Assembly: GCA_040743155.1 (NCBI GenBank)
Contig: JBFLJU010000001.1
Coordinates: forward strand, 372,001 to 436,000
Direction of reading: 5' to 3'
DNA from: Cycloclasticus sp.
Lineage (GTDB): Bacteria > Pseudomonadota > Gammaproteobacteria > Methylococcales > Cycloclasticaceae
DNA length: 64,000 nt
In this document: positions 38,261-62,003 of the stretch, in pieces
Layout: each line of letters starts with the position of its first letter
Position numbering within the stretch: the first letter of the stretch is position 1
The notes under the pieces: generated by a model
What the model was told of the DNA's origin: nothing
The model's database searches: none
The model's input: only the letters and a program-made list of their open reading frames with translations
Program-made: the position numbers and the translations under genes

Positions 38261-38267
38261 TTATAGG

Positions 38268-38295
38268 CCTGGCTATTGAATATTCAATAGCCAGG
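38268..38295. terminator. 28-bp perfect palindrome between narK1 and narK2
   Basis: CCTGGCTATTGAAT is followed immediately by its exact reverse complement, 8 bp after the narK1 stop, and the tail TTTGATTTTAATTT is T-rich. RNA would fold to a stem of up to 12 bp. It may be a leaky terminator or attenuator that reduces transcription into narK2, or an mRNA processing/stabilising element. Confidence 0.6.
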
Positions 38296-38347
38296 TTTGA
38301 TTTTAATTTAAAGGTTTGATTGTTTTTTTTCACAACAGGAGTGAATT

Positions 38348-39961: not shown

Positions 39962-39980
39962 TAGAGCATATATAGGTTAA

Positions 39981-40016
39981 ATGACAACAGCTGAGCTTTG
40001 GGTTGGTTGTTGTCAT
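39981..40016 (+). terminator. Hairpin between narK2 and narG
   Basis: ATGACAACA (39981-39989) pairs with TGTTGTCAT (40008-40016), 9 bp perfect with an 18-nt spacer, followed by ATTTTAAAAAAAG. A leaky terminator or processing site at the narK2/narG junction is possible. Confidence 0.4.
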
Positions 40017-40070
40017 ATTTTAAAAAAAGTGGTTTGCATTGCAGTTTAGTCAGAATCAATGGAGAGAAGA

Positions 40071-43826: not shown

Positions 43827-43838
43827 GGAGACAATACA

Positions 43839-45374: not shown

Positions 45375-45378
45375 GCCA

Positions 45379-46089
45379 ATGTATATTTTAAAAGTTATTT
45401 CACGCTTATTGGACTACCCGTCTCAATCATTGAACGAGCATTCTGATGAACTTGTTACTGTCGTTAATGACAGTAACTTATCGGCAGACAATAAACAGCA
45501 GTTGGTCGCTTTTATTAACACCTTAGCGGCGACAGATCTGTACGACTCACAAGAGCGTTATGATTTGCTGTTTGAACGAGGCCGTTCACTGTCGCTGTTG
45601 TTGTTTGAACACGTTCACGGGGAATCGAGAGACCGTGGTCAGGCGATGGTTGATTTGATGGCGGAATATGCAGAGCATGGTTTTGACGTTCATTCAGAGC
45701 AGATGCCAGATTATATTCCACTGTACCTCGAATTCCTTAGTGAACAGGATGAATCGTATGTGCATGAATGGTTGGGTGATGTTAGCCATATTCTGACGGT
45801 CTTGAGTGAACGACTGCTTGACCGTGAATGTGATTATCGAATTCTGTTTGAATCGCTTATTGAATTATCCGGTGCAACCGTTGAGCGTGAAAAAATTGCT
45901 GAAGCTGTTAAAAAAGAGCAGCCAGATGACACCATGGAGGCGATTGATAAAGCCTGGGAAGATAAGGAAATTCGTTTTGATGACCCTATCGAATCGGGTT
46001 GTGAGTCATCCTGCAGCGGTGGTTACTCAGCAGCAACAGAAGCACCTGTTACATGGCATAAAGCAGCGGAAAGCACTGCTGCAAGATAG
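45379..46089 (+). CDS. narJ: Nitrate reductase assembly chaperone NarJ
   Basis: Redox-enzyme maturation chaperone of the TorD/NarJ family that binds NarG and directs insertion of the molybdenum cofactor and FS0. All-helical 236 residues; the YILKVISRLLDYPSQSL start and the core LLFEHVHGESRDRGQAMVDL and YIPLYLEFLSE blocks are typical. It is not part of the final complex. Located between narH and narI as expected; a GTAAGCC leader precedes the start. The acidic tail with CESSCSG is not a known functional motif. Confidence 0.94.
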   Translation: MYILKVISRLLDYPSQSLNEHSDELVTVVNDSNLSADNKQQLVAFINTLAATDLYDSQERYDLLFERGRSLSLLLFEHVHGESRDRGQAMVDLMAEYAEHGFDVHSEQMPDYIPLYLEFLSEQDESYVHEWLGDVSHILTVLSERLLDRECDYRILFESLIELSGATVEREKIAEAVKKEQPDDTMEAIDKAWEDKEIRFDDPIESGCESSCSGGYSAATEAPVTWHKAAESTAAR

Positions 46090-46108
46090 CTAGATAAAGG
46101 AGAATATA

Positions 46109-46786
46109 ATGTCTTATTTAAATAATTTACTTTTTGGGATTTATCCCTACATCGCAATTTTTGTTTGCCTACTGGGCTCATGGATCCGGTTTGATCGTGA
46201 AGCCTATACCTGGAAAGCCGGTTCAAGCCAAATGCTCAACTCGAAAGGAATGCGCGTTGCCAGTAACCTTTTCCATGTTGGCGTTATCTTTGTCTTAATG
46301 GGGCACTTTGTTGGCCTATTAACGCCAGAGGCGATTTATCATGTTTTTATTAGTACGGAAAACAAACAGTTGCTGGCTATGGTGAGTGGTGGTTTTTTTG
46401 GACTTATTTGCCTGGTTGGTTTGGTCATGCTACTTAAGCGTCGCTTAACTGATCCACGCGTTCGCGCCACGTCGAGTAACTCTGATATTTTTATTTTGGG
46501 CTTATTGTTGGTGCAACTGGTGTTGGGGCTTTTGACTATCATCGCGTCAGCAAGTCATATGGATGGTTCGGTGATGGTGCTACTCGCCACTTGGGCACAA
46601 AGTATTGTTACTTTCCAAGCTGTGCAAGCTGCGCAAGCGATTGAGTCTGTTGGAATCATTTATAAACTACATGTTTTTGTCGGTCTGACGATGATTCTAG
46701 TGTTCCCATTTACCCGTTTAGTACACATGATCAGTGCGCCAATCTGGTATTTGGGTCGTCGTTACCAAATTGTTAGGCAGCGTTAA
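46109..46786 (+). CDS. narI: Respiratory nitrate reductase gamma subunit (cytochrome b)
   Basis: Inner-membrane diheme cytochrome b that oxidises quinol and passes electrons to NarH. Five transmembrane helices over 225 residues, as in E. coli (225). Candidate haem ligands are His in LFHVGVIFVLMGHFVGL (helix 2) and in KLHVFVGLTMIL with RLVHMIS (helix 5), the conserved positions. It follows narJ after 19 bp with AAAGGAG as ribosome binding site. Confidence 0.95.
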   Translation: MSYLNNLLFGIYPYIAIFVCLLGSWIRFDREAYTWKAGSSQMLNSKGMRVASNLFHVGVIFVLMGHFVGLLTPEAIYHVFISTENKQLLAMVSGGFFGLICLVGLVMLLKRRLTDPRVRATSSNSDIFILGLLLVQLVLGLLTIIASASHMDGSVMVLLATWAQSIVTFQAVQAAQAIESVGIIYKLHVFVGLTMILVFPFTRLVHMISAPIWYLGRRYQIVRQR

Positions 46787-46867
46787 GAGTTTATTTGCTT
46801 GAATTGGGAGCGTGTTGAACGTTCTTGATTCAAGGTCATTTATCAAACCAAATTGAAGAGAGAAAAA

Positions 46868-47665
46868 ATGAGCCATTGCACACTACATTCAAATGAGGCT
46901 GCTAACCTGTCTTTGCCCGAAATACGAGTTAATGGTGTTTTGTTAGATGAAGCGCTTTATGCACAGGAATTGCAATATCATCAGGCCGAAACACTGGATT
47001 CTGCACTTCAAAAGGCGGGGCAGGCACTCGTTATTCGGCAGCTTTTAATGAATGAAGCTGGGAACGATGCAGCTAATGATGAAGAGGCTGCAATTCAGTT
47101 ACTTGTCGAGAAAAACAGCTCATTCGTTGAGCCTTCGGAGAGTGATTGTAGCCGTTATTTTGAAAATAATAGTGAGCGCTTTAAAACAGAAGTGTTAATG
47201 GAAGTTGACCATATTTTGTTGGCCGCACCGAAAGATGATGTTGAAGAGAGAAGTGCGGAAAAATTGAAGGCTGAATCCATTATCGAGCAGCTGAAAGAGG
47301 ATATTTCACTGTTTCCAACATTAGCGGAACAGTATTCAATTTGCCCGTCTAAGAAAATGGGTGGTTCACTTGGGCAGATCGGTAAAGGACAAACAGTCCC
47401 TGAATTTGAAAAGCAACTGGTTAGGCTACCTGAGGGTTTGGCAAAAATAGCTATTGAAAGCCGTTACGGTTTTCACGTTGTAAGGGTTAATAGAAAAGTA
47501 GACGGTAAACAGCTTGAATACCCAATGGTTGCTGAAAAAATAAAACACTACCTTACTCAGAAAGCGTCTCAGCTTTCTATTCAAGGCTACATTCAATCAC
47601 TGGTGGAAAAGGCTGAAATTGAAGGGCTTCAAATTGCTTTTAGTGATACGAATATCATTATTTAA
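46868..47665 (+). CDS. Parvulin-type peptidyl-prolyl isomerase (PpiC family) of the nar operon
   Basis: A 265-residue protein with a helical N-terminal part and a parvulin domain (about 120-220): VDHILLAAPKDDVEER, FPTLAEQYSICPSKKMGGSLG, VPEFEKQL and the SRYGFHVVRVNRK end. No signal peptide, so cytoplasmic and probably involved in folding or maturing the nitrate reductase. A homologous gene follows narGHJI in Pseudomonas. I use the ATG at 46868 after GAGAG; a TTG at 46853 is upstream. Confidence 0.88.
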   Translation: MSHCTLHSNEAANLSLPEIRVNGVLLDEALYAQELQYHQAETLDSALQKAGQALVIRQLLMNEAGNDAANDEEAAIQLLVEKNSSFVEPSESDCSRYFENNSERFKTEVLMEVDHILLAAPKDDVEERSAEKLKAESIIEQLKEDISLFPTLAEQYSICPSKKMGGSLGQIGKGQTVPEFEKQLVRLPEGLAKIAIESRYGFHVVRVNRKVDGKQLEYPMVAEKIKHYLTQKASQLSIQGYIQSLVEKAEIEGLQIAFSDTNIII

Positions 47666-50433: not shown

Positions 50434-51882
50434 TTAGTGTGCGGCTGCCTCGTCAGTCGGTGTTTGAATGGTAATCCATTTCCACTCGGTAAGTGCTTCT
50501 ACATCCACTTCAATGCCTTCACGGCCAAAGCCGCTATCACCTGTGCCGCCGAACGGAACATGTGGTTCGTCGTATAAGGTAGGTGCGTTGATATGTACCA
50601 TGCCAGAATCAATATTCTCTGCAAAGTCTAAGGCTTTATTGAGATTATTAGTGATGATAGATGAGCTTAGGCCGTATGGTGTGTCATTAGCCATGTTGAG
50701 TGCAGCATCATAATCTGTTACGGAGTAGACAGAGGTGACAGGGCCAAAGGTTTCTTCATAGCAGACGGTCATATCTTCGGTGACATTGGTTAAGATTGTA
50801 GGTTGGCAACGGTTACCTTCCCATTCTCCACCCGTGACTAGGGTTGCGCCTTTTTCAACAGCATTGTCAATATGACCACGTACGCGATCGCGTTGGCGTT
50901 GTGAAATAATGGGCCCAAGGATGGTAGACATCTCACGTAAATCGCCCATAGAAAGTTGGCTGGCGGCTGCTTTGTAGGCGGCTAGGAATGAGTCGTAAAT
51001 GCCTTCTTCAACAATGATACGGCTTGAGGCCATACAGGCTTGCCCTTGATACAAGAACATGCCGAAAACAGCGGTTTTAACGGCCAGCTCAAGGTCGGCA
51101 TCGTTAAGAATGACTAACGGGCTTTTGCCGCCCAATTCCAATACTGCGTGTTTCATACCTCGGCCACAGATTTCGCCAATGTGTTTGCCGACACGGCTTG
51201 AACCGGTGAACATGACTGTTTTAACTAACGGGTGACTGTTTAATGTGTCGCCAACATCAACACCAAAGCCTGAAACAACGTTGATGGAACCTGCAGGGAA
51301 GCCCGCTTCATGTAAGAGTTGTGCAAAACGGTAGGAAAGTGTCGGTGCTTCTTCTGAAGGCAGAAGTACAACCGTATTTCCCGTTGCTAGTGGCGACGCC
51401 ACTAATTTTGCAGCTTTAATTAACGGCACATTAAACGGTGTGATAGCCGCTACAACTCCTAATGGTTTACGTACACTCATACTAATTTTACCGGCTGTGT
51501 CAGACGGCATGGTTTGGCCGGTAACGCGACGAGCGATGCCTGCTGCTGCACGTAGGTGGCCGATAGCATACTGAATTTCAAAATTGGCTTTGTTGATAGG
51601 TGAGCCGATTTCATCAATTAAAATATCGGTAAATTCAGCGCGATCTCTTTCTATCAAATCAGCAGCTTTACAGAGCATACGTTCGATGTCTTTAGCCAAT
51701 GTTTTGCTGTACGTTTGGAAACAAGCGTGAGCAGCGTCCACAGCCTTGTTAATATCGGCATCATTTGATTCGGCTGCTTGGCAATAAACCGAGTCATCAA
51801 GTGGGTTGAGTACCTCAAAATACTTGTTACTTTCAGGCTTTGTGTGTTCGCCATTGATCCATAGTTCGTGTTTTACAGTCAT
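50434..51882 (-). CDS. NAD(P)-dependent aldehyde dehydrogenase (downstream paralogue)
   Basis: A 482-residue aldehyde dehydrogenase with catalytic Cys in YQGQACMASSRIIVEEG (about residue 283), Glu in AVLELGGKSP (about 250), and the cofactor-binding AITPFNVPLIKAAKLVASPL and FTGSSRVGKHI (about 225). It resembles benzaldehyde, vanillin and salicylaldehyde dehydrogenases by eye. About three quarters identical to the gene just upstream, so it is a tandem duplicate. It follows that gene after 47 bp, last in the phenolic cluster; oxidation of the flavoenzyme's aldehyde product is the likely role. Confidence 0.9.
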   Translation of the reverse strand: MTVKHELWINGEHTKPESNKYFEVLNPLDDSVYCQAAESNDADINKAVDAAHACFQTYSKTLAKDIERMLCKAADLIERDRAEFTDILIDEIGSPINKANFEIQYAIGHLRAAAGIARRVTGQTMPSDTAGKISMSVRKPLGVVAAITPFNVPLIKAAKLVASPLATGNTVVLLPSEEAPTLSYRFAQLLHEAGFPAGSINVVSGFGVDVGDTLNSHPLVKTVMFTGSSRVGKHIGEICGRGMKHAVLELGGKSPLVILNDADLELAVKTAVFGMFLYQGQACMASSRIIVEEGIYDSFLAAYKAAASQLSMGDLREMSTILGPIISQRQRDRVRGHIDNAVEKGATLVTGGEWEGNRCQPTILTNVTEDMTVCYEETFGPVTSVYSVTDYDAALNMANDTPYGLSSSIITNNLNKALDFAENIDSGMVHINAPTLYDEPHVPFGGTGDSGFGREGIEVDVEALTEWKWITIQTPTDEAAAH

Positions 51883-51929
51883 GAGTTATCCTTAGAAATT
51901 ATTTAAATTGTTAGCGTGGATAGGCAGAA

Positions 51930-53375
51930 TTAATGTGCCTGATCGTACCCCGGTAATTGAATGGTAATCCACTTCCACTGCGTCAGAGCATCGATATCAA
52001 CATCAACCCCTTCACGTCCAAAGCCACTATCACCAACGCCACCAAATGGAACATTTGGCTCATCGTAAACACTTGGAGCATTAATATGAATCATGCCGGT
52101 TTTAACTTCATGAGCCAGCATAAGCGCCTTATTAAGGTCATTGGTGTGAATAGCACCACTAAGCCCATAATGCGTATCGTTTGCGAGTGCTAACGCCTCA
52201 TCAGCATCTTTAACAGAATAAATTGAAGTAACTGGGCCAAAGGTTTCTTGACGACAAACGGTCATTTCGTCGGTGACACCGGTCAAAATAGTCGGTTGGC
52301 ATCGATTGCCTTCCCATTCGCCACCGGTTACGAGTGTGGCACCTTTTGCGACGGCGTCTTCAATATGCGTGCGAACTCGGTTACGTTGTCGAGGTGAGAT
52401 AATAGGGCCAAGAATGGTTGCTATGTCGCGTAACTCACCCATTGAAAGCTGTTTGGCAGCGGCGCTATACATTTCAACAAATTGTTCATAAATAGCTTCT
52501 TCAACAATAATACGGCTAGATGCAATGCAAGCCTGACCTTGGTAGAAGAACATACCAATAATGGCATTTTGCACCGCAAGACCAATATCTGCATCGGCCA
52601 AGACGATATAAGGGCTTTTGCCACCGAGCTCTAAAACGCAAGGCTTCATGTTTTTACCACATAGCTCGCTAATGTGTTTACCAACAACGCTAGAGCCGGT
52701 GAACATGACCGCTTTCACCAATGAATGGCCAGTTAAGAAATCACCAACATCAACACCAAAACCAGACACTACATTTAAGCTACCTGCCGGAAAACCTGCT
52801 TCTTCCATAAGCCGTGCAAAGCGGAAGGATACGGCGGGGGCTTCTTCGGATGTTAATAGTACAACGGTATTGCCGGTAGCCAGAGGCGATGCAACCAACT
52901 TGGCCGCTTTCAGTAAGGGCACGTTAAACGGTGTAATGGCGGCTACAACGCCCAAGGGTTTACGCACACTCATGCTGATCCTACCTGGTGTGTCAGATGG
53001 CATGGTTTGCCCAGTGACGCGGCGAGCTGCACCAGCGGCAGCGCGTAGTTGCCCAATAGTTTGGCTAACTTCAAATTGCGCCTTGTTCATCGGTGAGCCC
53101 ACTTCATCGATCAATATCTCAAGAAACTCTTCACGGTCACGTTCTAGTAAGTCAGCGGCTTTGCATAGCATCGCTTCACGGTCTTTTGCTAGGCTCTTGC
53201 GGAACGTTTGGAAGCAGGCATGTGCGGCGTCAACGGCTTTATTTATATCGGCTTGATTGGATTCGGCAGCTGTACAAAACACGCTATCATCTAATGGGTT
53301 TAAAACATTAAAGTATTTTCCTGAAGTGGGCTTGGTGTCTTGCCCATTGATCCATAAATCGTAAGTCTTAATCAT
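51930..53375 (-). CDS. NAD(P)-dependent aldehyde dehydrogenase (upstream paralogue)
   Basis: A 481-residue aldehyde dehydrogenase with the same layout as its downstream neighbour: Asn/Phe cofactor loop (ITPFNVPLLKAAK), FTGSSVVGKHISE, catalytic Glu in CVLELGGKSP and Cys in YQGQACIASSRIIVEEA. The two copies differ most at the N-terminal 30 residues and in the C-terminal end (LPGYDQAH against TPTDEAAAH), so they may have diverged for different aldehydes. Separated by 161 bp from the upstream flavoprotein gene, where an inverted repeat lies, so it may have its own promoter. Confidence 0.9.
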   Translation of the reverse strand: MIKTYDLWINGQDTKPTSGKYFNVLNPLDDSVFCTAAESNQADINKAVDAAHACFQTFRKSLAKDREAMLCKAADLLERDREEFLEILIDEVGSPMNKAQFEVSQTIGQLRAAAGAARRVTGQTMPSDTPGRISMSVRKPLGVVAAITPFNVPLLKAAKLVASPLATGNTVVLLTSEEAPAVSFRFARLMEEAGFPAGSLNVVSGFGVDVGDFLTGHSLVKAVMFTGSSVVGKHISELCGKNMKPCVLELGGKSPYIVLADADIGLAVQNAIIGMFFYQGQACIASSRIIVEEAIYEQFVEMYSAAAKQLSMGELRDIATILGPIISPRQRNRVRTHIEDAVAKGATLVTGGEWEGNRCQPTILTGVTDEMTVCRQETFGPVTSIYSVKDADEALALANDTHYGLSGAIHTNDLNKALMLAHEVKTGMIHINAPSVYDEPNVPFGGVGDSGFGREGVDVDIDALTQWKWITIQLPGYDQAH

Positions 53376-53459
53376 AAGTATTTCCTGATATTTGAGTGTT
53401 AGTGAAAGTCAATATTGCTTATTACGTAGACAAAAAGTGGTGGCTGGAGGTTTAAAGTG

Positions 53460-53508
53460 TGTCGGATAATTAAGCGATATGCTTATTGCAAAGCTTAACT
53501 ATCCGACA
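53460..53508. repeat. 16-bp inverted repeat before the aldehyde dehydrogenase pair
   Basis: TGTCGGATAATTAAGC (53460-53475) and GCTTAACTATCCGACA (53493-53508) pair at 15 of 16 positions around a 17-nt spacer, in the 161-bp gap between the second flavoprotein gene and the aldehyde dehydrogenases. No T tail on either strand, so an operator or mRNA processing site is as likely as a terminator. Confidence 0.6.
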
Positions 53509-53536
53509 ACTGAATACTTGATATTGAATGCTGTCC

Positions 53537-54973
53537 TTAACCAAAGACAGATTTTGGGTCGAGCGCATTTTTAACGCGTTTTTTTAGCGTTTGGAGACCG
53601 GGAAGGCTAACGGCATCGACGGCTTCTTGCAGATCGGCATCCACCAAACAAGCAGGGTAGCCTTGGGCTGAAAAATCGTTAATGAGTTGCTGCGCTAAAC
53701 TTCTAGCTTGCGTTAGCTTTTCTGCATCTCCCGTTGGGTACAAGATTTGTAGCTGGCTCATCATTGTTCGCCAAGTTAGCGCATATTGACTAATGATTTT
53801 AAGTTTTTCAGGGTTATTTAAATTTTGCAGTAAGGCTTCCATTTTATTCGCATCATCGCCGTCGATTGGGCTGGAAAAATGAACATTGATTGATGAGTAC
53901 GCCGCTAAGTTTTTATTAATAGCGTTGAACTTGCCGTTCATTTTCATTTCACGTTGTGCCCACACCGGGTTGCTGCTGGTGGCCTCTTGCAGTATAAATT
54001 TGCCGCCTTCAATTTGACCAAAAGCACCGCTAATGGCTTGCCATAAAAAATCAACGTTGGCGGGAATGTTGTAGAGTGCGCCGTACATGTTCCACTGGCC
54101 TAACTGATGTTTTTCAGCCATTTCATTATTGCTACCAATTTGATCGACTGCTTCGTCAGCAAACTGTAAGGCATCTGACTGTGCTGATGCCACGGTCACG
54201 GTGTTAGGTACCAACATGTTGATTTTCATGCCACGCATAATCTCAATCGCTTGATTGAGGGCTGCTTCATTCGGTAATTGAAGGGCAAAAGGTTTGTAGG
54301 CTGGTGCTTTAGGCATCAGCCAAATACCTACTTTAGTCACAATGCCTAGACTCGATTGGGTGAAAGTACCGTCAAGATAAGGGCCAAAGCCATATTTAAA
54401 TAATTGCCATGAATTACTTTTAGGCATCGCACCCATTCCTGTCCTGATGAGGCGGCCACTGGCGAGCATGATTTCCATACCACACTGCATCATCAGGTGG
54501 TCACCATAAGGCGTGTAGCCATAGCTTCTATTGGAAATGCCGCCGGATACAGACTGTGTTGAATTTTTGTCAAAATCGACCACAAAAGGAATGTTATTGG
54601 TTTCCAAGTACGTATTTAACTGGGCGTAGCTAACGCCAGGTTCGACAAGCGCGTAGGCCGCTTTGTCGTTGACCTCAATAATTTTATTGAGCTTTTTGAG
54701 GTCAATCACCACAATCGCACCTTCAGCAGGAATAGGCGCGGTGTTGATTTCGCCTGGGCTTAGTAGGTTAAATAACGAAAAGTCTTTATCCGTTGAGATA
54801 ACCAGTAAGTCCTTTAATTCATCTAAATTGCTTGGGGTAACTACGGCAGCCACTTCACGTGCTGAGTTGTTAATTCTATCCGCTAAAAACTGGTATTCAG
54901 CATGCTCTTCAGTCAGAGCGCTAATGTTATCGGCACTAAATATAGTGCTTAGAGTTTCAATAATGGTTTTCAT
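53537..54973 (-). CDS. Degenerate VAO/PchF-family flavoprotein paralogue
   Basis: 478 residues, clearly related to the flavoprotein encoded at 57136-58704: LVEPGVSYAQLNTYL, YGYTPYGDHLMMQCGMEIML and LFKYGFGPYLDGTFTQSS are conserved. The catalytic features are missing: the pyrophosphate loop STGKNFAYGG is replaced by LLSPGEINTAP; the His that takes the covalent FAD has no counterpart in SINVHFSSP (361-369); the HH pair is replaced by RTMMSQ (402-407); and the YRTHL block is lost (GYPACLVDADLQ). It is about 44 residues shorter than the partner. It may be a structural or regulatory subunit, or a gene losing function. It follows the small VdcD-like gene by 11 bp. Confidence 0.85.
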   Translation of the reverse strand: MKTIIETLSTIFSADNISALTEEHAEYQFLADRINNSAREVAAVVTPSNLDELKDLLVISTDKDFSLFNLLSPGEINTAPIPAEGAIVVIDLKKLNKIIEVNDKAAYALVEPGVSYAQLNTYLETNNIPFVVDFDKNSTQSVSGGISNRSYGYTPYGDHLMMQCGMEIMLASGRLIRTGMGAMPKSNSWQLFKYGFGPYLDGTFTQSSLGIVTKVGIWLMPKAPAYKPFALQLPNEAALNQAIEIMRGMKINMLVPNTVTVASAQSDALQFADEAVDQIGSNNEMAEKHQLGQWNMYGALYNIPANVDFLWQAISGAFGQIEGGKFILQEATSSNPVWAQREMKMNGKFNAINKNLAAYSSINVHFSSPIDGDDANKMEALLQNLNNPEKLKIISQYALTWRTMMSQLQILYPTGDAEKLTQARSLAQQLINDFSAQGYPACLVDADLQEAVDAVSLPGLQTLKKRVKNALDPKSVFG

Positions 54974-54984
54974 AATCAGTTGGT

Positions 54985-55218
54985 CTATTTATATTGAGCC
55001 GGCGGCATAATAACGGGGTAAGACTTTTCAGGGTCGACTCTAAAAAATGCCTCGCGTTTGTCGTAATCGATAGTAGTAGCGGGTTCGCTGTCGCGCCAAG
55101 TGAATTCACAACTGACGCAGTGAAAAATGCTCCAGACTAATTCACCTTGAGCGTTAAGCCCCTTATGTTCCGTGCGTATTTTTTCTTTTGCTGCTTGACA
55201 ACGTGGGCATGTGCTCAT
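54985..55218 (-). CDS. VdcD/BsdD-like small subunit of a phenolic acid decarboxylase
   Basis: A 77-residue protein with two CxxC pairs, CPRC (C4, C7) and CVSC (C34, C37), plus W.IFHC..CEFTWRDSEP, matching the small D subunit (about 75 residues) of vanillate and hydroxyarylic acid decarboxylases (VdcD, BsdD), from memory. Its role there is unclear, but it accompanies the UbiD-like C subunit and UbiX-like B subunit. The start overlaps the UbiD stop (ATGA), showing coupled translation. Its presence points to a phenolic-acid decarboxylase and not the ubiquinone enzyme. Confidence 0.8.
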   Translation of the reverse strand: MSTCPRCQAAKEKIRTEHKGLNAQGELVWSIFHCVSCEFTWRDSEPATTIDYDKREAFFRVDPEKSYPVIMPPAQYK

Positions 55219-56696
55219 GAGCTCTCTCCATTTTGTAAGACCTGAATAAGTTTCGCTATGGCATCAATTTCAGGGCCTGCGGGTGGGGTAACTATTTTTG
55301 AGTCAGAACCGAGTTTATCCGGTGGCATAAAGCTAGTCGCATCAATAATTAAACGATGTCCTTTACCAGCAATTTCGGCGGCTGGGTCAATAGGAATTAA
55401 CGGCATATTTGGGATAACGATGGTGTCATCAGCTCGGGTGCGAGTAGATAATGCCCACATCACCTCGTTAAGATCGAATGGATCAACGTCATCATCCACC
55501 ATAATAAGGTTTTTAAGATACATGGTGCCATGAGGCGTACCTAGCGCGCGCATGGCGACGGATTTTGCAAACCCAGCAAATCTATTCTTAACCGAAATAA
55601 TCCCTGTAAGGCCATGTTGGTATAGTGCGTTAACGGCAACAACTTCCGGGAAGTCTTTGACTAATTGCGCGTAAATAGGGGCGGAGGTGTTAAGTCCAAT
55701 TAAGGTGTCGTGTTCTGTCCAACCTCGGCCAATGTATATATTTTCAAAGATCGGGTCAGTACGGTGAGAAATGGCGGTGACTTTAAAACGAGGTATTTTT
55801 CTAACGCCACTGTAACTACCCGGGAATTCACCAAAAGGGCCTTCCAAGGTACGAACGCCATTCATCAGCTCTGCTTCAATAATCATTTCTGAATCAGCAA
55901 GAATATCCATGCCGTTGCCAGATTTTGTTAAGCGAAGAGGGCTGCCCATCATTTGCGACGCATACGCAAATTCAGATTCGTCGTAACCCACTGGAGTTGC
56001 AGCAAACATGCACATGGCAGGGTGGTTGCCTAACATCACAGAAATTTTTAGTGGTACGTTTAGCTGCTCGGCGGCCATGATGTGACGGCCCATGTCGTGA
56101 GCCGGAATAGAGAGCAGAGTGAACTCGCCAGGTGCTTGGACTTGAATGCGATAGATGCCGACATTTTGTTTGCCAAAGTTATCAGGGTCAGTAGGGTCGC
56201 GACTAACGACGTTGGCCTTGCCAATATAAAAACCACCGTCGTACTCATTAATTCGATATAGAGGTAGCAAGTCGTATAAGTTGAAATTTTCGGTGATGCG
56301 GTTTTCGTTAACCGGTGCGGCTTCAGGTTCGATAAAGTCGAGCAGTGGTTTATCGTCTCCCCAGCGTGAAATAATGTCATAGAACAACTCTTTAATGGTT
56401 GTTCCCTTGGGGTGGCCTAATAATAAGGCAAGGTTAGTGAAGCTACCGTGCACACCAAGAACAAGTTTTTTGCCGGGGTAGCCGGCAATATTACTAAAGA
56501 CCACGGCGGGGCCATTCATCGAATCCCTACCCGCGGCGACAGCAATATTGCGGATGTCAGGCTCTGGGTAAACTTCGTCGCTCCAAGTAATGCATTGACC
56601 GTTTTCTTCTAGAAATTCTAGGAAGTCCCTTAGGCAGCCAATACGTTCACCAACTTCTTTTGCTTTAGCGGATAGAGGCTTCTTTACAGTACTCAT
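55215..56696 (-). CDS. UbiD-family (prenylated-FMN) aromatic acid decarboxylase
   Basis: A 493-residue UbiD-fold enzyme, C subunit of a VdcBCD/BsdBCD-type decarboxylase. Non-oxidative, reversible removal of carboxylate from a 4-hydroxybenzoate- or vanillate-like acid would be expected. The Glu pair of the Glu-Arg-Glu proton-relay is in LEGPFGEFPGSY (about 284-295) and the Arg in VGIYRIQVQ (about 175-185). Glu/Asn metal-binding residues appear in QNVGIY and DSEMIIEAEL. Its start overlaps the upstream cytochrome stop (TAATG). Sits with the UbiX-like and VdcD-like genes but separated from UbiX by three genes. Confidence 0.88.
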   Translation of the reverse strand: MSTVKKPLSAKAKEVGERIGCLRDFLEFLEENGQCITWSDEVYPEPDIRNIAVAAGRDSMNGPAVVFSNIAGYPGKKLVLGVHGSFTNLALLLGHPKGTTIKELFYDIISRWGDDKPLLDFIEPEAAPVNENRITENFNLYDLLPLYRINEYDGGFYIGKANVVSRDPTDPDNFGKQNVGIYRIQVQAPGEFTLLSIPAHDMGRHIMAAEQLNVPLKISVMLGNHPAMCMFAATPVGYDESEFAYASQMMGSPLRLTKSGNGMDILADSEMIIEAELMNGVRTLEGPFGEFPGSYSGVRKIPRFKVTAISHRTDPIFENIYIGRGWTEHDTLIGLNTSAPIYAQLVKDFPEVVAVNALYQHGLTGIISVKNRFAGFAKSVAMRALGTPHGTMYLKNLIMVDDDVDPFDLNEVMWALSTRTRADDTIVIPNMPLIPIDPAAEIAGKGHRLIIDATSFMPPDKLGSDSKIVTPPAGPEIDAIAKLIQVLQNGESS

Positions 56697-57139
56697 TATT
56701 TACCTTCCTTTGGCACATAGGCCTTGGCGTTGTCGACGATATAGTTTGATAAATTATCTAATTCAGAATTGTTGAGGTCGGTTGGGCGAAATGGAGGCAT
56801 TTCGAGCAGACCATCTCTAACAACATACTTGATGTAAGCGGGGGTTAAATCCTTACGTTGCATGATAACGGCCAAGTCTTTTCCACGAACCAAGGCGAGC
56901 TGTTTAGTCGCTGCGTGGGCAGTACCGGGGTTGTGACAGCCGGCGCAATGGAGATCAAAAAGAACCTTACCTGAGCGGTTGCTGATCGTGCCTTCAACGG
57001 TTGGTTCGGGCGTTACAGGTTCAGCTATAACGGCAGCTGCAGGAGTTTCTTGCTGTTGTACAACAGCGGGCGCGTTAGTTTGTTGCTCGCAGGCCATCAG
57101 CGTTAGAGCGCTTAACGCAATAATTATGTGTTTTTTCAT
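56696..57139 (-). CDS. Lipoprotein cytochrome c, electron acceptor of the flavoprotein
   Basis: 147 residues: signal peptide with lipobox LMAC (Cys17), a Pro/Ala-rich linker, and one class I c-type haem with CAGCH (Cys65, Cys68, His69) and a candidate axial Met in LLEMPPFRP. Anchored in the periplasm. The start overlaps the flavoprotein stop by 4 bp (ATGA). In 4-cresol methylhydroxylase (PchCF) the cytochrome takes electrons from the flavoprotein, so this is the likely acceptor. The lipid anchor and the linker differ from PchC as I recall it. Confidence 0.85.
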   Translation of the reverse strand: MKKHIIIALSALTLMACEQQTNAPAVVQQQETPAAAVIAEPVTPEPTVEGTISNRSGKVLFDLHCAGCHNPGTAHAATKQLALVRGKDLAVIMQRKDLTPAYIKYVVRDGLLEMPPFRPTDLNNSELDNLSNYIVDNAKAYVPKEGK

Positions 57140-58704
57140 GATGTAGCTCTTAGATTTTTTGGCCAAATTCCCATTTTCCCAGGTGACAGAATGCCGTTAG
57201 GATCCAGTTCATCTTTTAAAGCGTGATGGGTATCCCAAAGCGCGTTGTTATTCCAACCATAGGTGCCCGCAATTTGATCCATGAAGGATAAATGGGTGCG
57301 GTATTCACCGTAGCCCAAGGCGGCGGCATCGTCTACTAGCACGGCGAATAACTCGTGTGCGCGTTTCTTCTCTTCTTCGTTCATGCGGTCAAACATCAGC
57401 ATAAAGATGTGATGCTGGTCTCTCCAGCCAATTAGAAACTCACCGATGTAGTCAAAACCATATTCATGAGAGCGTTGGCGAATCATTTGATATTGATTCA
57501 TCGAGTCTTTTCCGTCGGCAGCTGAAATGGGTGAGAAATTGATATGACCACCACCGCCTATCCAGTTTAATAAACTGAATTCGGTCATATTGGGCTCACC
57601 TTTCATGAGCTTTACACGGTAGTCCCAGCCGGGATCACCTTTGCGGGTATCATCAAAGTGAAATTTAGCGCCGGGAATACCGCTAAAGGTATCGCGAATG
57701 ATTTCCATGTTGTTTTTCATCATCGGTTCTGGCCCGTAGACAGCAGCGTAGTAGTTCCAGATACCGAGGTCTAAATCTTTGGCCATTTTTTTCCGGTTGC
57801 TCTCTGGCATCGGGCCTTTTCCGGTGTAGTACTGGCGTTTACTCACCGACATGGCTGATTCCCAGATAAGGTCAACGGTCATCGGTGCATTGTGAATAAC
57901 CTGATTTAGTCTTAACGGAAGCGTTAGGTCGGTGACTATTTCAAGGTCTTGCTCGTTTTCAAGCGTAATCATAAAGGGTGTGTAGCCCGGAGGTTCTGGC
58001 ATAAGCCAAATGCCCATGCGGGTAATAACGCCAAAGTTTGATTGGGTGAACAAGCCATCAATGGCAGGGCCTTGGCCGTACTTATACAGTGCGCCAGATT
58101 TACTGTTAGCGGTGGTGTCCATGCCGGTTTCGACAACGGTGCCATCGGCTAAAACAACTTGCATGCCGCATTGCATTAATAAGTGATCGCCATACGGGGT
58201 ATAGCCCGCACCATGGTCAGAAGTGTTGCCAACAAAGCCGCCCCAAGCAGGCGCAGCGCAGTCAATCCACAGTTTTATACCTTTTTCTTGTAGGTAATTG
58301 TATAAGTCATAGTAACTAACACCGGGCTCAACAATGGCATAACCATGTTTTTCGTTGACCTCAAGAATTTTATTCATGAGCTTTAAATCGAGAACGATAT
58401 AGCCCGGTTTACGGGGCGCAGGGCCGCCGTATGCAAAATTCTTCCCCGTTGAAATAGTCCAAATGGGTATTTTGTAGTTATTAACGATAGAGAGAATTTT
58501 TTGAATTTGCTCAACGTTTTTAGGTGCGACAGCGGCGGATGGCGCAAAGTCGGCATCATTAGTGGTGTTGTATGGGTCGCGGTAACTTCTTAGTTCTTTT
58601 ATATCATCTAAAAAGACAAAGTCCTTACCGACAACTTTTTCAATCTCAGCGATAGCAGCATTCAGCTGATTTAATGTGATGCCCTGTGGGAGTGGTTTAG
58701 TCAT
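57136..58704 (-). CDS. VAO/4-cresol dehydrogenase family flavoprotein (covalent FAD)
   Basis: 522-residue enzyme of the vanillyl-alcohol oxidase/4-cresol methylhydroxylase group, which oxidises 4-alkylphenols or 4-hydroxybenzyl alcohols. FAD domain blocks: PIWTISTGKNFAYGG (80-94), VEPGVSYYDL and GYTPYGDHLLMQCGM. His387 in GGGGHINFSPI aligns with the FAD-binding His422 of fungal vanillyl-alcohol oxidase, while the Tyr that carries FAD in PchF is Leu379 here. His431-His432 (RDQHHIF) and Tyr468-Arg469 (GEYRTHLSFMDQ) match the VAO active site. No Asp170-like base is seen near residue 151. Likely histidyl-FAD, dehydrogenase mode with the adjacent cytochrome. 15 bp after the Tat-signal gene. Confidence 0.9.
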   Translation of the reverse strand: MTKPLPQGITLNQLNAAIAEIEKVVGKDFVFLDDIKELRSYRDPYNTTNDADFAPSAAVAPKNVEQIQKILSIVNNYKIPIWTISTGKNFAYGGPAPRKPGYIVLDLKLMNKILEVNEKHGYAIVEPGVSYYDLYNYLQEKGIKLWIDCAAPAWGGFVGNTSDHGAGYTPYGDHLLMQCGMQVVLADGTVVETGMDTTANSKSGALYKYGQGPAIDGLFTQSNFGVITRMGIWLMPEPPGYTPFMITLENEQDLEIVTDLTLPLRLNQVIHNAPMTVDLIWESAMSVSKRQYYTGKGPMPESNRKKMAKDLDLGIWNYYAAVYGPEPMMKNNMEIIRDTFSGIPGAKFHFDDTRKGDPGWDYRVKLMKGEPNMTEFSLLNWIGGGGHINFSPISAADGKDSMNQYQMIRQRSHEYGFDYIGEFLIGWRDQHHIFMLMFDRMNEEEKKRAHELFAVLVDDAAALGYGEYRTHLSFMDQIAGTYGWNNNALWDTHHALKDELDPNGILSPGKMGIWPKNLRATS

Positions 58705-58719
58705 GTTTATTCCAAGCGG

Positions 58720-59304
58720 TTAAATATGTTTAGGGGAGCTAAGCGACCAAGACACTAAAAAGTCATGTTGATCAGTATCGGGTAGAGATAGTTGGGTTTT
58801 GCTGGTGATAAACTCTGAATTTCCACGCGGCAAAATACGCATATTATTAGCGAGCCACTGAGGCCACTGCGCTTTTGCATTTTTGAGTGAGGACGCAATA
58901 AGCTCAGCCGAATCTTTAGACGTTGAAACTTCGTGTACTAAGGTGTCGTTGGCGTATCGATGTGTCGCAGAATATTGGGTGTAAAAACCAAAATCTTTAG
59001 CTACTTGTTCGAGTACAAAAAAATCAGAGTCTCGGGTGAGGCCTGTGATTTGGCCATTAGGGGATTCTTTGCAAAATTTTCTGAGTAAGTCAAAGTGCTG
59101 GCCAATATCTAAATCAAGGTTGGAGTTTTTGTCCTCCACGTTAGAAATAAAGTGCTTTGAATTTAAGGCATGGTCATCAGCAAAGACGAGCAAAGGAATA
59201 TCTTGTGAACTTGCTAATACTTGCTGAAGCGCCAGTGACGGGGTTGCTAATAAGGCTATGTTGCTAGCCAATGCGGATTTAATGAATGTGCGTCTGCTTA
59301 ACAT
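58720..59304 (-). CDS. Tat-signal protein of unknown function in the phenol-oxidation operon
   Basis: 194 residues starting MLSRRTFIKSALASNIALLA, a twin-arginine signal (SRRTFIK) followed by a hydrophobic stretch. No cofactor motif or recognised domain in the rest, which is charged and helical. AGAGGAG lies 5 bp before this ATG; an upstream in-frame start at 59367 would bury the signal. Sits between the UbiX-like gene and the flavoprotein. The flavoprotein itself has no export signal, while its cytochrome acts in the periplasm, so co-export (hitchhiking) is a possible role; PchX of Pseudomonas 4-cresol operons is a position counterpart. Function unproven. Confidence 0.75.
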   Translation of the reverse strand: MLSRRTFIKSALASNIALLATPSLALQQVLASSQDIPLLVFADDHALNSKHFISNVEDKNSNLDLDIGQHFDLLRKFCKESPNGQITGLTRDSDFFVLEQVAKDFGFYTQYSATHRYANDTLVHEVSTSKDSAELIASSLKNAKAQWPQWLANNMRILPRGNSEFITSKTQLSLPDTDQHDFLVSWSLSSPKHI

Positions 59305-59342
59305 AAGCTCCTCTTTACATTTTAATTTAAGGGATTTAGCCT

Positions 59343-59921
59343 TTATGGGTTTGTAAGGCCTTTCCAACGTTTGACATAATCTACATTAGAAATATCTAAT
59401 GTGTCTAGTATTCTTCCAACTGTGTGGTTAACAATATCGTCAATAGTCTTGGGTTGCGTATAAAATGCAGGTACAGGTGGCGCGATGATGGCACCCATTT
59501 CAGATAGTGTTGTCATGTTTCTTAAATGAACGAGGTTCAAGGGAGTCTCCCTAGTCATTAAAATAAGTTTCCGGCGTTCTTTTAACACCACATCGGCGGC
59601 TCTTGAAACGAGGTTATCGGCAATGCCATTGGCAATACAGCCGAGTGTTTTCATTGAGCACGGTGCAATGACCATTCCATGAGTAATGAAAGAGCCGCTA
59701 GATAATGTGGCACCAATGTCTTTTGGGCTATGTGTCACATCTGCCAATGCAGTGATTGTTTTCTTATCCATATTAAGCTCATATTGAGCGGTTAGCGCAC
59801 CAGCACTAGACAGGATCAAGTGAGTCTCAACATCGTCAACCGTTTGCAGAATTTCAAGCAAACGAGTACCGTAAATGGAGCCGGTGGCACCGGTTATAGC
59901 GATAATAATTTTCTTTTTCAT
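59343..59921 (-). CDS. ubiX: UbiX-like flavin prenyltransferase (decarboxylase B subunit)
   Basis: 192 residues. UbiX family enzymes attach a dimethylallyl group to FMN to make the prenylated cofactor needed by UbiD. Blocks: GATGSIYGTRLLEIL, PCSMKTLGCIANGIADNLVSRAADV and LKERRKLILMTRETPLNLVHLRNM. It is the first gene on the minus-strand run and divergent from a 77-residue gene. Located with the UbiD- and VdcD-like genes, it probably serves that decarboxylase; it may be additional to a housekeeping UbiX elsewhere, which cannot be seen here. Confidence 0.9.
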   Translation of the reverse strand: MKKKIIIAITGATGSIYGTRLLEILQTVDDVETHLILSSAGALTAQYELNMDKKTITALADVTHSPKDIGATLSSGSFITHGMVIAPCSMKTLGCIANGIADNLVSRAADVVLKERRKLILMTRETPLNLVHLRNMTTLSEMGAIIAPPVPAFYTQPKTIDDIVNHTVGRILDTLDISNVDYVKRWKGLTNP

Positions 59922-59994
59922 GCGACCTTATTATTGTTAGATTTTATGACACTATCGTCAAACAAAAGTAGCGTCAATACTAAGTGAGGATAAA

Positions 59995-60228
59995 ATGACA
60001 GAAAGCACCATTTCACTAGAAGATAAAAAAACCATCATTATTGACTTTCTTATGCAGTGTAATAACTACAGCGAGTCGATGCTTGATAAATATAAAAAAC
60101 AGTTATTGGACGAGCAGCTGAATGAGTCGGCGGACCAAAAGATACACGACTGGACTGTTTACAAAGACTTTAATGATTACGCCATTAGAGAACTTAATGG
60201 CAGAGAGTTAGACGACTGGTTGATTTAA
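59995..60228 (+). CDS. Small acidic hypothetical protein
   Basis: 77 residues, MTESTISLEDKKTIIIDFLM onward, very acidic and charged, no signal peptide, membrane segment or known domain. GAGG lies 8 bp before the ATG. Divergent from the UbiX-like gene (73 bp) and 86 bp ahead of the sigma-54 regulator. Function unknown; possibly an accessory of the regulator. Confidence 0.6.
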   Translation: MTESTISLEDKKTIIIDFLMQCNNYSESMLDKYKKQLLDEQLNESADQKIHDWTVYKDFNDYAIRELNGRELDDWLI

Positions 60229-60314: not shown

Positions 60315-62003
60315 ATGGCAAATAAAACTGATTATAAATTACCACCGAGTGATGACTTAAAAGACCGTATTCGTTTTTCTTATGAAACAGGGCATATTTG
60401 GTTAGGTGAACAACGAATGCTGTTACTGCATAGCGCAGCAGCAGGTTCAATACGTAAGGAATTGGTTGAAACGGTCGGTATTGAACATGCTAAAGGCGTG
60501 ATGATGCGGACAGGCTTTCAAGCTGGCCAAGCCGATGCAAAGCTGGCAAAAAAGATGCGCCCAGATGCATCTGAATTAGATCAGTTTCTTGTTGGCCCGC
60601 AACTTCATCAATTGGAAGGGCTTGTGCGTGTGAAAGTGCTTGAAATGGAAATTGATGTAAAGAAAAAAAAGTTTCACATGGAACTGGTTTGGGAGAACTC
60701 ATACGAAAGTGAAGTGCATAAAAAGGAGTATGGTGCTTCCGATAAACCGGTTTGTTGGATGGAGGTGGGTTACGCCAGTGGTTATAGTTCTGAGTTTACC
60801 GGCCAATCCATTATATTTGTTGAGGAAACATGTAGCGCTTGCGGTAGTGCGGGCTGCTTAGTTATTGGCAAACCGGTTGCTGAATGGGATAACCCTGAAG
60901 AGCTGACTAAATACTATAAATCAGAAAGTATTGTTGACCAGATTCTTGATTTGCGCGAAGAAGTCGATAGCTTACGATCCACAATGACGGATCTTGCAAA
61001 AGAAGAACAACATATCATTGGTGATTCTAAGGCGTTTAAAAATTCATTGGCATTGTTGCAAAAAGCCATTCAAGGGCCAGTAACTGTTTTACTGTTGGGC
61101 GAAACGGGGGTTGGTAAAGAACTATTTGCGCGATCTTTGCATCGCAGAAGCTGTAGAGTGAATAAAGAATTTATTGCAGTGAACTGTGCGGCCATACCTG
61201 ATGACTTGTTAGAGGCAGAGTTGTTTGGCGTAGAAAAAGGTGCGTACACGGGCGCTCATGAGTCACGAAAAGGGCGTTTCGAACGGGCAAGTGGTGGCAC
61301 ACTGTTTTTAGATGAAGTGGGTGATTTATCTTATTCTGCACAAGCTAAATTATTGCGTGTGTTGCAAGAAGGTGAGTTAGAGCGGGTCGGCGGGACTAAA
61401 GTCATTTCAGTTGATGTAAGAGTTGTTGCCGCAACGCACGCGGATTTACTGGATAAGGTTGAACGAGGTGAGTTTAGGCGCGATTTGTTTTACCGGCTAA
61501 ATGTTTATCCGATTATTATTCCACCGCTTAGGGAGAGGCAAGGAGATATTTCCTTATTGGCTAGCAATTTTGTTGATCAGTACAAAGCTAAGTACCAAAA
61601 AGAGGTTAAAGGTATTACTGGGCATGCCATGGCTCAATTAGATATGTATCAATGGCCGGGGAATATCCGCGAACTTGAGAACGTCATTGAACGCGGTGTT
61701 TTGCTTTGCGAAAATGGCGGTTACATTGAGCTTGAGCATCTATTTGCCATGATGAAAGTGGAAGAAGCGCCAGAAGAAGTAGTGGATGAGAATGGTCAGT
61801 TAAAATCACTTAAAAAGGGTGTTTATAAGCAATTCGTGGAAATGTTTTTTGAGGCTCAAAATAACCTTTTCGAAATTGAGGAAACTATTCTTAAAGAAGC
61901 GGTAAAAAGGTCTAGTGGTAACTTGTCGGGTGCCGCTAGGAAGTTGGGTATGAGTAGGCCGCAATTGGCTTATAGGCTCGGGAAAATAGAAGAGGATAAA
62001 TAG
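60315..62003 (+). CDS. Sigma-54-dependent phenol-sensing regulator (MopR/DmpR/XylR family)
   Basis: 562 residues from the ATG at 60315 (a TTG at 60303 is the longest frame). Domains: XylR-type sensor (about 10-130), V4R zinc domain (about 140-195), AAA+ ATPase (about 237-460) and a Fis-type helix-turn-helix (about 530-553). Walker A GETGVGKE (262-269), GAYTGA loop (309-314) and Walker B GTLFLDE (328-334). With an 8-residue shift, the MopR phenol-pocket residues F99, H106, W134 and Y165 and zinc ligands C155, E178, C181 and C189 are all present; F132 and Y176 are Leu and Phe (comparison from memory). A likely activator of the phenolic cluster with a phenol-like effector. Confidence 0.9.
   Translation: MANKTDYKLPPSDDLKDRIRFSYETGHIWLGEQRMLLLHSAAAGSIRKELVETVGIEHAKGVMMRTGFQAGQADAKLAKKMRPDASELDQFLVGPQLHQLEGLVRVKVLEMEIDVKKKKFHMELVWENSYESEVHKKEYGASDKPVCWMEVGYASGYSSEFTGQSIIFVEETCSACGSAGCLVIGKPVAEWDNPEELTKYYKSESIVDQILDLREEVDSLRSTMTDLAKEEQHIIGDSKAFKNSLALLQKAIQGPVTVLLLGETGVGKELFARSLHRRSCRVNKEFIAVNCAAIPDDLLEAELFGVEKGAYTGAHESRKGRFERASGGTLFLDEVGDLSYSAQAKLLRVLQEGELERVGGTKVISVDVRVVAATHADLLDKVERGEFRRDLFYRLNVYPIIIPPLRERQGDISLLASNFVDQYKAKYQKEVKGITGHAMAQLDMYQWPGNIRELENVIERGVLLCENGGYIELEHLFAMMKVEEAPEEVVDENGQLKSLKKGVYKQFVEMFFEAQNNLFEIEETILKEAVKRSSGNLSGAARKLGMSRPQLAYRLGKIEEDK

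Follow-up and report, generated by a model that had tools for sequence, protein, structure and literature searches.

How does a bacterium dispose of the acid made by a p-cresol-type oxidation operon when that operon also carries genes for a hydroxyarylic acid decarboxylase? We address this question for a nine-gene cassette of Cycloclasticus sp. (GCA_040743155.1, contig JBFLJU010000001.1), located in a window of 64,000 nucleotides (nt) that spans bases 372001-436000 of a genome of 2.56 Mb assembled as one contig. The cassette (50434-59921 in window numbering, used throughout) is contiguous, with all nine genes intact and on the minus strand (Table 1). A first-pass annotation, made from the letters alone, had described a single-strand gene set with overlapping or short junctions, and each of the genes it named is present and intact. 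It had read the set as a pathway that oxidizes a 4-alkylphenol or 4-hydroxybenzylic alcohol to an acid and decarboxylates the acid to phenol or guaiacol. Based on gene content and order, protein families, residues kept or lost, synteny, and the pathway genes found or not found, we favor with modest confidence a cassette that is a para-methyl-stripping module for phenols, carrying p-cresol through 4-hydroxybenzoate to phenol in this genome.

We infer the reactions, substrate and product, a complex of two flavoprotein subunits (alpha and alpha'), an export role for a twin-arginine translocation (Tat) protein, and the regulation. The active flavoprotein (alpha), its probably dead paralogue (alpha') and the lipoprotein cytochrome c would form a periplasmic flavocytochrome that uses water to oxidize p-cresol-type phenols at their para-methyl (or para-hydroxymethyl) group and passes the electrons to the cytochrome. 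One or both of the aldehyde dehydrogenases (ALDHs) would make 4-hydroxybenzoate, from which VdcC/VdcD, with prenylated flavin mononucleotide (prFMN) made by UbiX, would take the carboxyl group off as CO2 and leave a para-unsubstituted phenol. The input here would most likely be p-cresol, formed from toluene by a nearby monooxygenase of the toluene/o-xylene monooxygenase (ToMO) type, and the phenol would pass to a nearby phenol hydroxylase and catechol meta pathway.

The intergenic distances from ubiX to the last ALDH gene are 38, 15, −4, −1, −4, 11, 161 and 47 nt. Overlaps of 1-4 nt run from the active flavoprotein gene through vdcD, and the sole large gap (161 nt) precedes the ALDH genes. The known operon used for comparison is pchACXF of Pseudomonas putida NCIMB 9866/9869 (PchF structure 1dii), in which pchX stands directly before the flavoprotein gene. 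Common to both are a flavoprotein, a cytochrome c, an aldehyde dehydrogenase and, immediately ahead of the flavoprotein gene, a gene of unassigned function, and PchF residues Y95, E380, E427, Y473 and R474 are kept in the window. The window set differs in adding vdcC, vdcD, ubiX and a degenerate alpha' paralogue, and its acid would be decarboxylated, whereas that of the pch pathway is ring-hydroxylated.

Table 1. Features of the cassette and its upstream region (window positions; start-corrected for all nine cassette genes).
Feature	Position	Strand	Basis
UbiX/VdcB-like flavin prenyltransferase	59343-59921	-	start-corrected; family matches
Tat-signal protein, 194 amino acids (aa), without known family	58720-59304	-	start-corrected
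Active flavoprotein of the p-cresol methylhydroxylase/vanillyl-alcohol oxidase (PCMH/VAO) type, dehydrogenase type by sequence (alpha subunit)	57136-58704	-	PDB matches, conserved residues
Lipoprotein cytochrome c (putative beta subunit / electron acceptor)	56696-57139	-	CXXCH, Cytochrome_CBB3
VdcC, UbiD-family hydroxyarylic acid decarboxylase	55215-56696	-	NF041204, 7ae4
VdcD, small zinc-ribbon, putative VdcC activator, 77 aa	54985-55218	-	two CXXC motifs
PCMH-like flavoprotein, second copy, with degenerate catalytic residues (proposed alpha' subunit)	53537-54973	-	1dii match, residue losses
Strong RNA hairpin, gap between alpha' and first ALDH genes	53456-53511	-	−27.3 kcal/mol, z −6.1
Aldehyde dehydrogenase, proposed 4-hydroxybenzaldehyde dehydrogenase	51930-53375	-	Aldedh 520 bits; ELGGKSP and GQAC motifs
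Second aldehyde dehydrogenase	50434-51882	-	Aldedh 523 bits; PDB matches
Conserved promoter-like stretch upstream of ubiX	59947-59979	-	alignment, nine upstream regions (eight distinct)
Small open reading frame (ORF), 77 aa, conserved beside cassette	59995-60228	+	homologues at related loci
XylR/DmpR-type sigma-54 activator, divergent, upstream of cassette	60315-62003	+	XylR_N, V4R, AAA, Fis helix-turn-helix

Among solved structures the first flavoprotein best matches vanillyl-alcohol dehydrogenase (VAD; 8s7p, 668 bits), with PCMH (1dii) at 472 bits, and both flavoproteins of the cassette contain Pfam FAD_binding_4. PchF and VAD were aligned with 45 sequences of the active type (39 distinct) and 45 of the second type (40 distinct), and we read the alignment by the functional roles of PchF Y95, E380, Y384, E427, H436, Y473 and R474 and of VAO His422. 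Window residues Y92, E375, H387, E422, Y468 and R469 are conserved in 45/45 active-type sequences, as are the equivalents of PchF Y95, E380, E427, Y473 and R474; that of H436 is found in 41/45. The flavin-linking Tyr384 of PchF is replaced by Leu in the window protein and by Met or Leu in all 45, which instead have a histidine of the VAO flavin-linking type at PchF position 392 (45/45). The residue beside flavin N5 is the dehydrogenase-type proline in 43 of the 45, and proline or isoleucine at this place has been tied to dehydrogenases (PMC7617285). Given this proline and a cytochrome gene that overlaps the flavoprotein gene by 4 nt, the active flavoprotein is, as judged from sequence, a dehydrogenase and not an oxidase. 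The cytochrome c itself has one CXXCH motif, a Cytochrome_CBB3 match of 45.9 bits and, by eye, a lipobox-like start (LMAC).

The nearest solved relative, VAD of Marinicaulis flavus, has in common with the window enzyme the N5 proline and the histidine at the flavin-linking place, and oxidizes vanillyl alcohol, 4-hydroxybenzyl alcohol and eugenol while being inactive on p-cresol (PMC7617285). VAD has Leu where PCMH and all 45 active-type enzymes have Glu (PchF E427, window E422), so the specificity of VAD cannot simply be carried over. A lignin-type route, from vanillyl or 4-hydroxybenzyl alcohol through vanillate or 4-hydroxybenzoate to guaiacol or phenol, would agree with the preference of VAD for these alcohols (PMC7617285) and with the vanillate and 4-hydroxybenzoate used to assay the VdcCD enzymes of Sedimentibacter and Bacillus (PMC8379154). 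We consider such a route improbable, as the PCMH glutamate stands at E422 in 45/45 sequences, the neighborhood is one of hydrocarbon degradation (toluene, phenol, meta pathway), and Paraburkholderia aromaticivorans BN5, which carries an orthologous set, degrades benzene, toluene, ethylbenzene and xylenes (BTEX; PMC6351602).

The second flavoprotein matches PCMH (1dii) at 275 bits. The first-pass annotation listed it simply as a second flavoprotein; a working enzyme is contradicted by the loss of most catalytic residues across 45 relatives, which marks it as probably a dead paralogue. Among the second-type sequences (n = 45), the equivalents of PchF Y473 and H436 are found in none, R474 in 2 (on plasmids pBN2 and pBN3), E380 in 1 and His392 in 1; Y95 is still present in 15 and E427 in 34, and no sequence has two or more of E380, His392, Y473 and R474. 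In the window copy the glycine-rich stretch at PchF 88-97, presumably the part that holds flavin adenine dinucleotide (FAD), is disrupted. A structural model of the protein (predicted local distance difference test (pLDDT) score 75.9) retrieves VAO/PCMH structures at Z 25-28 over ~430 residues, including 1dii at Z 26.9 (root-mean-square deviation (rmsd) 3.6 over 431 residues). With its fold kept and key catalytic residues lost, this protein probably serves as an alpha' subunit without catalysis of its own. Its residues ~150-209 are strongly conserved yet modeled with least confidence, which might be expected of a surface that becomes ordered on contact with a partner.

Two other interpretations of this gene were rejected: two working flavoproteins for two substrates, because the second is without most of the key catalytic residues, and a decaying pseudogene, because 45 near-full-length reading frames occur in loci of three classes. 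The single computable ratio of nonsynonymous to synonymous substitution rates (dN/dS) was 0.05, synonymous changes being otherwise mostly saturated. When the genome was searched for relatives of the active flavoprotein, the matches were that protein itself and the second flavoprotein only. Loci and genomes found in our scans carry L and G numbers where they must be told apart; in two more distant loci (L042 and L047) an active flavoprotein is also paired with a degenerate one. A further locus has two active-looking flavoproteins (L040:1900-5071), with no degenerate one matched within its 9.3 kb. The Geobacter p-cresol methylhydroxylase was reportedly described by Johannes et al. in 2008 as an alpha-alpha'-beta2 complex in which alpha' is without FAD. 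Geobacter metallireducens likewise has two paralogous flavoprotein subunits, PcmI and PcmJ (PMC12724174); it differs in being a strict anaerobe, with benzoyl-CoA as the predicted destination of its 4-hydroxybenzoate (PMC1924859). Degenerate paralogues, orthologous to one another and retained next to a live copy in three bacterial classes, would make a clear example of an enzyme subunit that is dead yet conserved.

The decarboxylase genes are of recognized families. VdcC exceeds the NCBIfam VdcC cut-off (NF041204, 662.6 vs 650 bits), has the solved VdcC 7ae4 as its best PDB match (444 bits) and retains the YRIQ and EGPFGE stretches. VdcD carries CPRC at 4 and CVSC at 34, and its gene shares 4 nt with vdcC. 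UbiX exceeds the cut-offs of the general UbiX models (NF004685 at 277.9 bits, cut-off 188) and falls just under that of the VdcB model (NF041206, 268.3 of 290 bits); it is expected to make prFMN for VdcC. The VdcBCD vanillate/4-hydroxybenzoate decarboxylases of Sedimentibacter and Bacillus (7ae4) are alike in their UbiD-type C, zinc-ribbon D and UbiX-type B components. Those sets stand alone, whereas the set in the window lies inside a methylphenol oxidation operon and has a UbiX under the VdcB cut-off. By argument, we do not favor a UbiD that runs in the carboxylating direction, from phenol to 4-hydroxybenzoate, since its pairing with an oxidizing flavocytochrome would be hard to explain.

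The fate of the acid was traced through the host pathways in a survey of 18 Cycloclasticus-type genomes. No 4-hydroxybenzoate 3-hydroxylase exceeded its cut-off in any of the 18 (weak matches in 16, all <50 bits), no intradiol dioxygenase was found in any, and LigA was found in one (G009), which is not the window genome, so that 17 of the 18 are without both of these ring-cleavage families. In genome coordinates the cassette lies at 422.4-431.9 kb and phenol/toluene hydroxylase genes (PF02332) at 452.6-467.4 kb, 20-36 kb apart. A phenol-hydroxylase-type set comes first there, followed by genes for catechol 2,3-dioxygenase (423 bits against a cut-off of 320) and hydroxymuconic semialdehyde dehydrogenase (805 bits against 693) and then by a ToMO-type monooxygenase; the best match of its large subunit, at 963 bits, is toluene/o-xylene monooxygenase. 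The phenol hydroxylase subunits had no NCBIfam match at the threshold used, except the reductase, which is under its cut-offs. With the tested enzymes of a 4-hydroxybenzoate route not found and a phenol/catechol meta pathway 20-36 kb away, a decarboxylative route is well supported for this genome. Across the family, PF02332 is present in 10 of the 18 genomes, all 10 with a close VdcC, and a cassette-type VdcC in 12 (11 over the cut-off plus a 584-bit match in G013, which is 58% complete); the remaining 6 have neither. The exact probability of this co-occurrence is 0.0015 if the genomes are independent, which they are not.

The closest link to measured metabolites comes from BN5, whose plasmid pBN2 carries a cassette orthologous to that in the window (60% identity for the active flavoprotein, 70% for VdcC). 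The benzene/toluene/xylene genes of pBN2 include tmoABCDE, pchCF, pchA, dmpKLMNOP and xylE, in two clusters; 4-hydroxybenzoate was found in toluene-grown cells, and phenol and catechol in benzene-grown cells (PMC6351602). We take the pchCF and pchA genes to be the flavoprotein, cytochrome and ALDH genes of the pBN2 cassette. The section of that paper in which these findings appear leaves the fate of the acid open, and the terms decarboxylase, UbiD and protocatechuate do not occur in its main text (PMC6351602). The oxidize-then-decarboxylate interpretation of the first-pass annotation thus gains from the protein families, the missing acid-route enzymes, the nearby meta pathway and the 4-hydroxybenzoate of BN5; nothing points to guaiacol, its other suggested product.

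A scan of a genome collection with VdcC alone yielded 56 loci, 36 of them flanked by 6 kb or more to either side, mostly from related sphingomonads and Cycloclasticus, and the counts that follow ignore kinship. The 36 well-flanked loci contain the active flavoprotein (31), the second flavoprotein (29), the cytochrome (31) and vdcD (34). The flavoprotein-cytochrome-UbiD-VdcD block singled out in the first-pass annotation proved to be syntenic: both flavoproteins stand beside VdcC in 29 of the 30 well-flanked loci whose VdcC is at least 69% identical, the exception being L039. The nine closest VdcC loci among the matches listed have 87-95% identity, as has L049 (94%), and are mostly from Cycloclasticus, with one from a Methylococcaceae and one from a Piscirickettsiaceae genome. 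Copies also occur on plasmids pNL1 (Novosphingobium aromaticivorans), p1 (Sphingobium fuliginis KK22), and pBN2 and pBN3 of the betaproteobacterial BN5. The constant core on plasmids is the two flavoproteins, cytochrome, vdcC and vdcD; variable among set-bearing loci are gene order, ALDH number, ubiX and the Tat protein, with no Tat gene listed before the flavoprotein gene on pBN3 and no ALDH found beside the set in L013-L016. The combination had been called unusual, which is true against the p-cresol operons known to that reader and not of the core itself, since this recurs in Alpha-, Beta- and Gammaproteobacteria.

These loci bear on whether the decarboxylase genes belong to the pathway. They could have a separate function and merely share the locus, with the flavoprotein/ALDH pathway ending at the acid as in known p-cresol operons; VdcC-VdcD-UbiX does occur without flavoproteins in L039, gene order varies between classes, and a 4-hydroxybenzoate hydroxylase over the cut-off is present in 9 of 23 sphingomonads. 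We judge this very unlikely in view of the 1- and 4-nt overlaps that join the cytochrome, vdcC and vdcD genes, the 29 of 30 loci in which both flavoproteins accompany a close VdcC, and the acid-using enzymes tested for and not found in this genome. The protein distances of the two flavoproteins and VdcC also run parallel (r 0.97-0.98, 38 sequences, ignoring shared ancestry).

A wider survey covered 29 further cassette-bearing genomes, 6 from gammaproteobacteria and 23 from sphingomonads (Sphingomonadales). PF02332 is present in 5 of the 29 (4/6 gammaproteobacteria, 1/23 sphingomonads), and PF07976 phenol hydroxylases exceed the cut-off in 2 of the 41 genomes searched, both sphingomonads. Ten of the 29, all but one of them sphingomonads, have a 4-hydroxybenzoate hydroxylase over the cut-off, and G019, G020 and G021 have strong matches below it (447-455 bits).

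Several observations weigh against a p-cresol-to-phenol module. The nearest solved relative does not act on p-cresol, UbiD enzyme activity is often oxygen-sensitive (PMC8379154), and tmo and pchCF lie in different clusters in BN5 (PMC6351602). Neither phenol hydroxylase family was found in 20 of the 23 cassette-bearing sphingomonads, so phenol is without recognized use there, and the 4-hydroxybenzoate hydroxylase in 9 of the 23 means that the decarboxylase would not be needed there for that acid. Within the Cycloclasticus family, G001 and G016 carry the VdcC cassette without PF02332 or PF07976, their phenol-hydroxylase and ToMO genes being missing from an otherwise similar neighborhood; the activator beside the cassette is missing in G001 and kept in G016. 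No convincing sigma-54 −24/−12 box was found before ubiX in the aligned upstream regions, so the activator may not control the cassette, and the large hairpin gap may uncouple the ALDH genes. No biochemical data on this set were found in the open-licence literature. We therefore rejected a universal coupling of the cassette to phenol hydroxylase, as the set occurs without a recognized one in sphingomonads, G001 and G016. In G001, G016 and most of the sphingomonads, either the product differs or another enzyme takes the phenol.

A different product is what would follow if the same chemistry acted on a substituted para-methylphenol (2,4-dimethylphenol to o-cresol, or 5-methylsalicylate to salicylate), a possibility that we regard as unlikely. 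The set would then serve xylene or methylnaphthalene degradation, with a Rieske-type hydroxylase or a meta pathway, and not phenol hydroxylase, receiving the product. Such a substrate would account for the persistence of the set where no recognized phenol hydroxylase was found, as in G001, G016 and the majority of the sphingomonads searched. In five places the cassette has a Rieske oxygenase of the benzoate/toluate-dioxygenase type nearby (G000, G001, a Porticoccaceae metagenome-assembled genome (L012), pBN2 and pNL1), so other substituted compounds may be the substrate; on pNL1 a 2-hydroxychromene-2-carboxylate isomerase gene and two pairs of oxygenase genes lie upstream of the set. The Rieske subunit matches best with benzoate dioxygenase, at 580.5 bits and thus under the cut-off of 780.95, the salicylate 1-hydroxylase model is not among its matches, and L013, L014, L016 and L032 show weak partial Rieske matches only (26-28%). 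VdcCD is not known to act on hydroxyisophthalate, which we count against a substituted substrate. The acid that BN5 makes from toluene is 4-hydroxybenzoate itself (PMC6351602), a further point against such a substrate.

If the p-cresol-to-phenol route is correct, it would explain the use of p-cresol and para-hydroxylated toluene by bacteria without a recognized protocatechuate route, and would place the often oxygen-sensitive prFMN aromatic decarboxylases in aerobic marine hydrocarbon degradation. More tentatively, and with rather less confidence, the cassette could represent an undescribed, widespread form of aromatic demethylation in which a methyl group is converted to a carboxylate and removed by a prFMN decarboxylase, bringing methylphenols into the pathway of unmethylated phenols, with live and obligate dead flavoprotein subunits and a dedicated Tat carrier. 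No description of this gene set was found in the open-licence literature. The pchF/pchC cluster of Novosphingobium MBES04 is among lignin-dimer-responsive genes, and a decarboxylase does not appear in the main text of that report. A study of a flavoprotein in anaerobic benzene metabolism (PMC13416013) has no bearing on the set. The chemistry of every step is known; what is new within the open-licence literature is that these genes are combined, that a degenerate subunit is conserved among them, and how widely the set is spread across bacterial lineages.

The proposed Tat carrier has no Pfam or NCBIfam match. R4, R5, G88, H115, H124 and W186 are invariant in 18 aligned homologues, and its gene lies directly upstream of the flavoprotein gene, the place of pchX in the pch operon. 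A Tat-type protein directly precedes the active flavoprotein gene in most set-bearing loci, an unrelated ORF taking its place in L013, L014 and L016. The model of the protein (pLDDT 79.9) gave no confident fold match (best Foldseek E 0.0036, TM-score 0.25); its best structural match is the lac repressor (Z 5.4, rmsd 3.6 over 96 residues), and we do not claim a new fold. Because no signal peptide was seen by eye on the active flavoprotein while PchCF is periplasmic (PMC12724174), we propose that the Tat protein may carry the active flavoprotein out, as an export or assembly partner.

Both dehydrogenases contain Pfam Aldedh. Comparison with solved structures covered the second (50434-51882), whose best PDB matches include NahF and vanillin, benzaldehyde and 4-hydroxybenzaldehyde dehydrogenases. 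The hairpin in the 161-nt gap before the ALDH genes may set their level. In five other distinct Cycloclasticus-type loci (L003, L004, L005, L007 and L049; L092 is the same contig as L049) the corresponding gap exceeds 100 nt and is likewise predicted to hold a hairpin, though of another sequence and, for these five, without a shuffle control. In L009, where the first ALDH gene is missing, the gap is 34 nt and has no hairpin to speak of.

The activator upstream of the cassette exceeds the Pfam cut-offs for XylR_N (121 bits), V4R (44.8), Sigma54_activat (231) and HTH_8 (32.7), and is under the cut-off of the MobR phenol regulator (607.3 of 999 bits). The window copy of the conserved promoter-like stretch has TTGACG and a GAC-N6-GTC repeat and is not sigma-54-like; direct activation of ubiX through sigma-54 was discarded as a candidate, there being no convincing −24/−12 box. 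Such boxes are found before the phenol hydroxylase (dmpK) and ToMO (touA) operons (L080:2098 and L080:13860, plus strand); together with the activator beside the cassette, we count them in favor of the p-cresol-to-phenol reading. Seven short loci of relatives gave no sigma-54 box by strict pattern, and these loci may not reach the promoters. The 77-aa ORF beside the cassette has homologues at 60-70% identity in 8 Cycloclasticus-type loci (7 distinct) and at 42% in L013, L014 and L016, which belong to other gammaproteobacteria. About three near-identical tandem copies of a ~50-nt unit precede the phenol hydroxylase operon (L080:1751-1960).

Between the Rieske oxygenase and phenol hydroxylase genes are two proteins with acyl-CoA-dehydrogenase-type domains and a flavin reductase (L079:18521-19732 and L080:34-1750), a possible two-component monooxygenase. 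G016 retains this set, whereas the stretches of G001 covered gave a match to the reductase alone. A fatty-acid-desaturase-type protein (L079:5211-6140, in the window from 63210) is 65% identical to one ~8 kb from the pNL1 cassette. Elsewhere in the window, the translations at 15326-16631 (minus strand) read as an FAD-linked oxidase of the glycolate oxidase kind, apparently split over two ORFs, perhaps by a frameshift. Those at 37007-47665 (plus strand) read as a pair of nitrate/nitrite transporters, the subunits of a respiratory nitrate reductase and a protein resembling parvulin, and on these genes the strain may respire nitrate.

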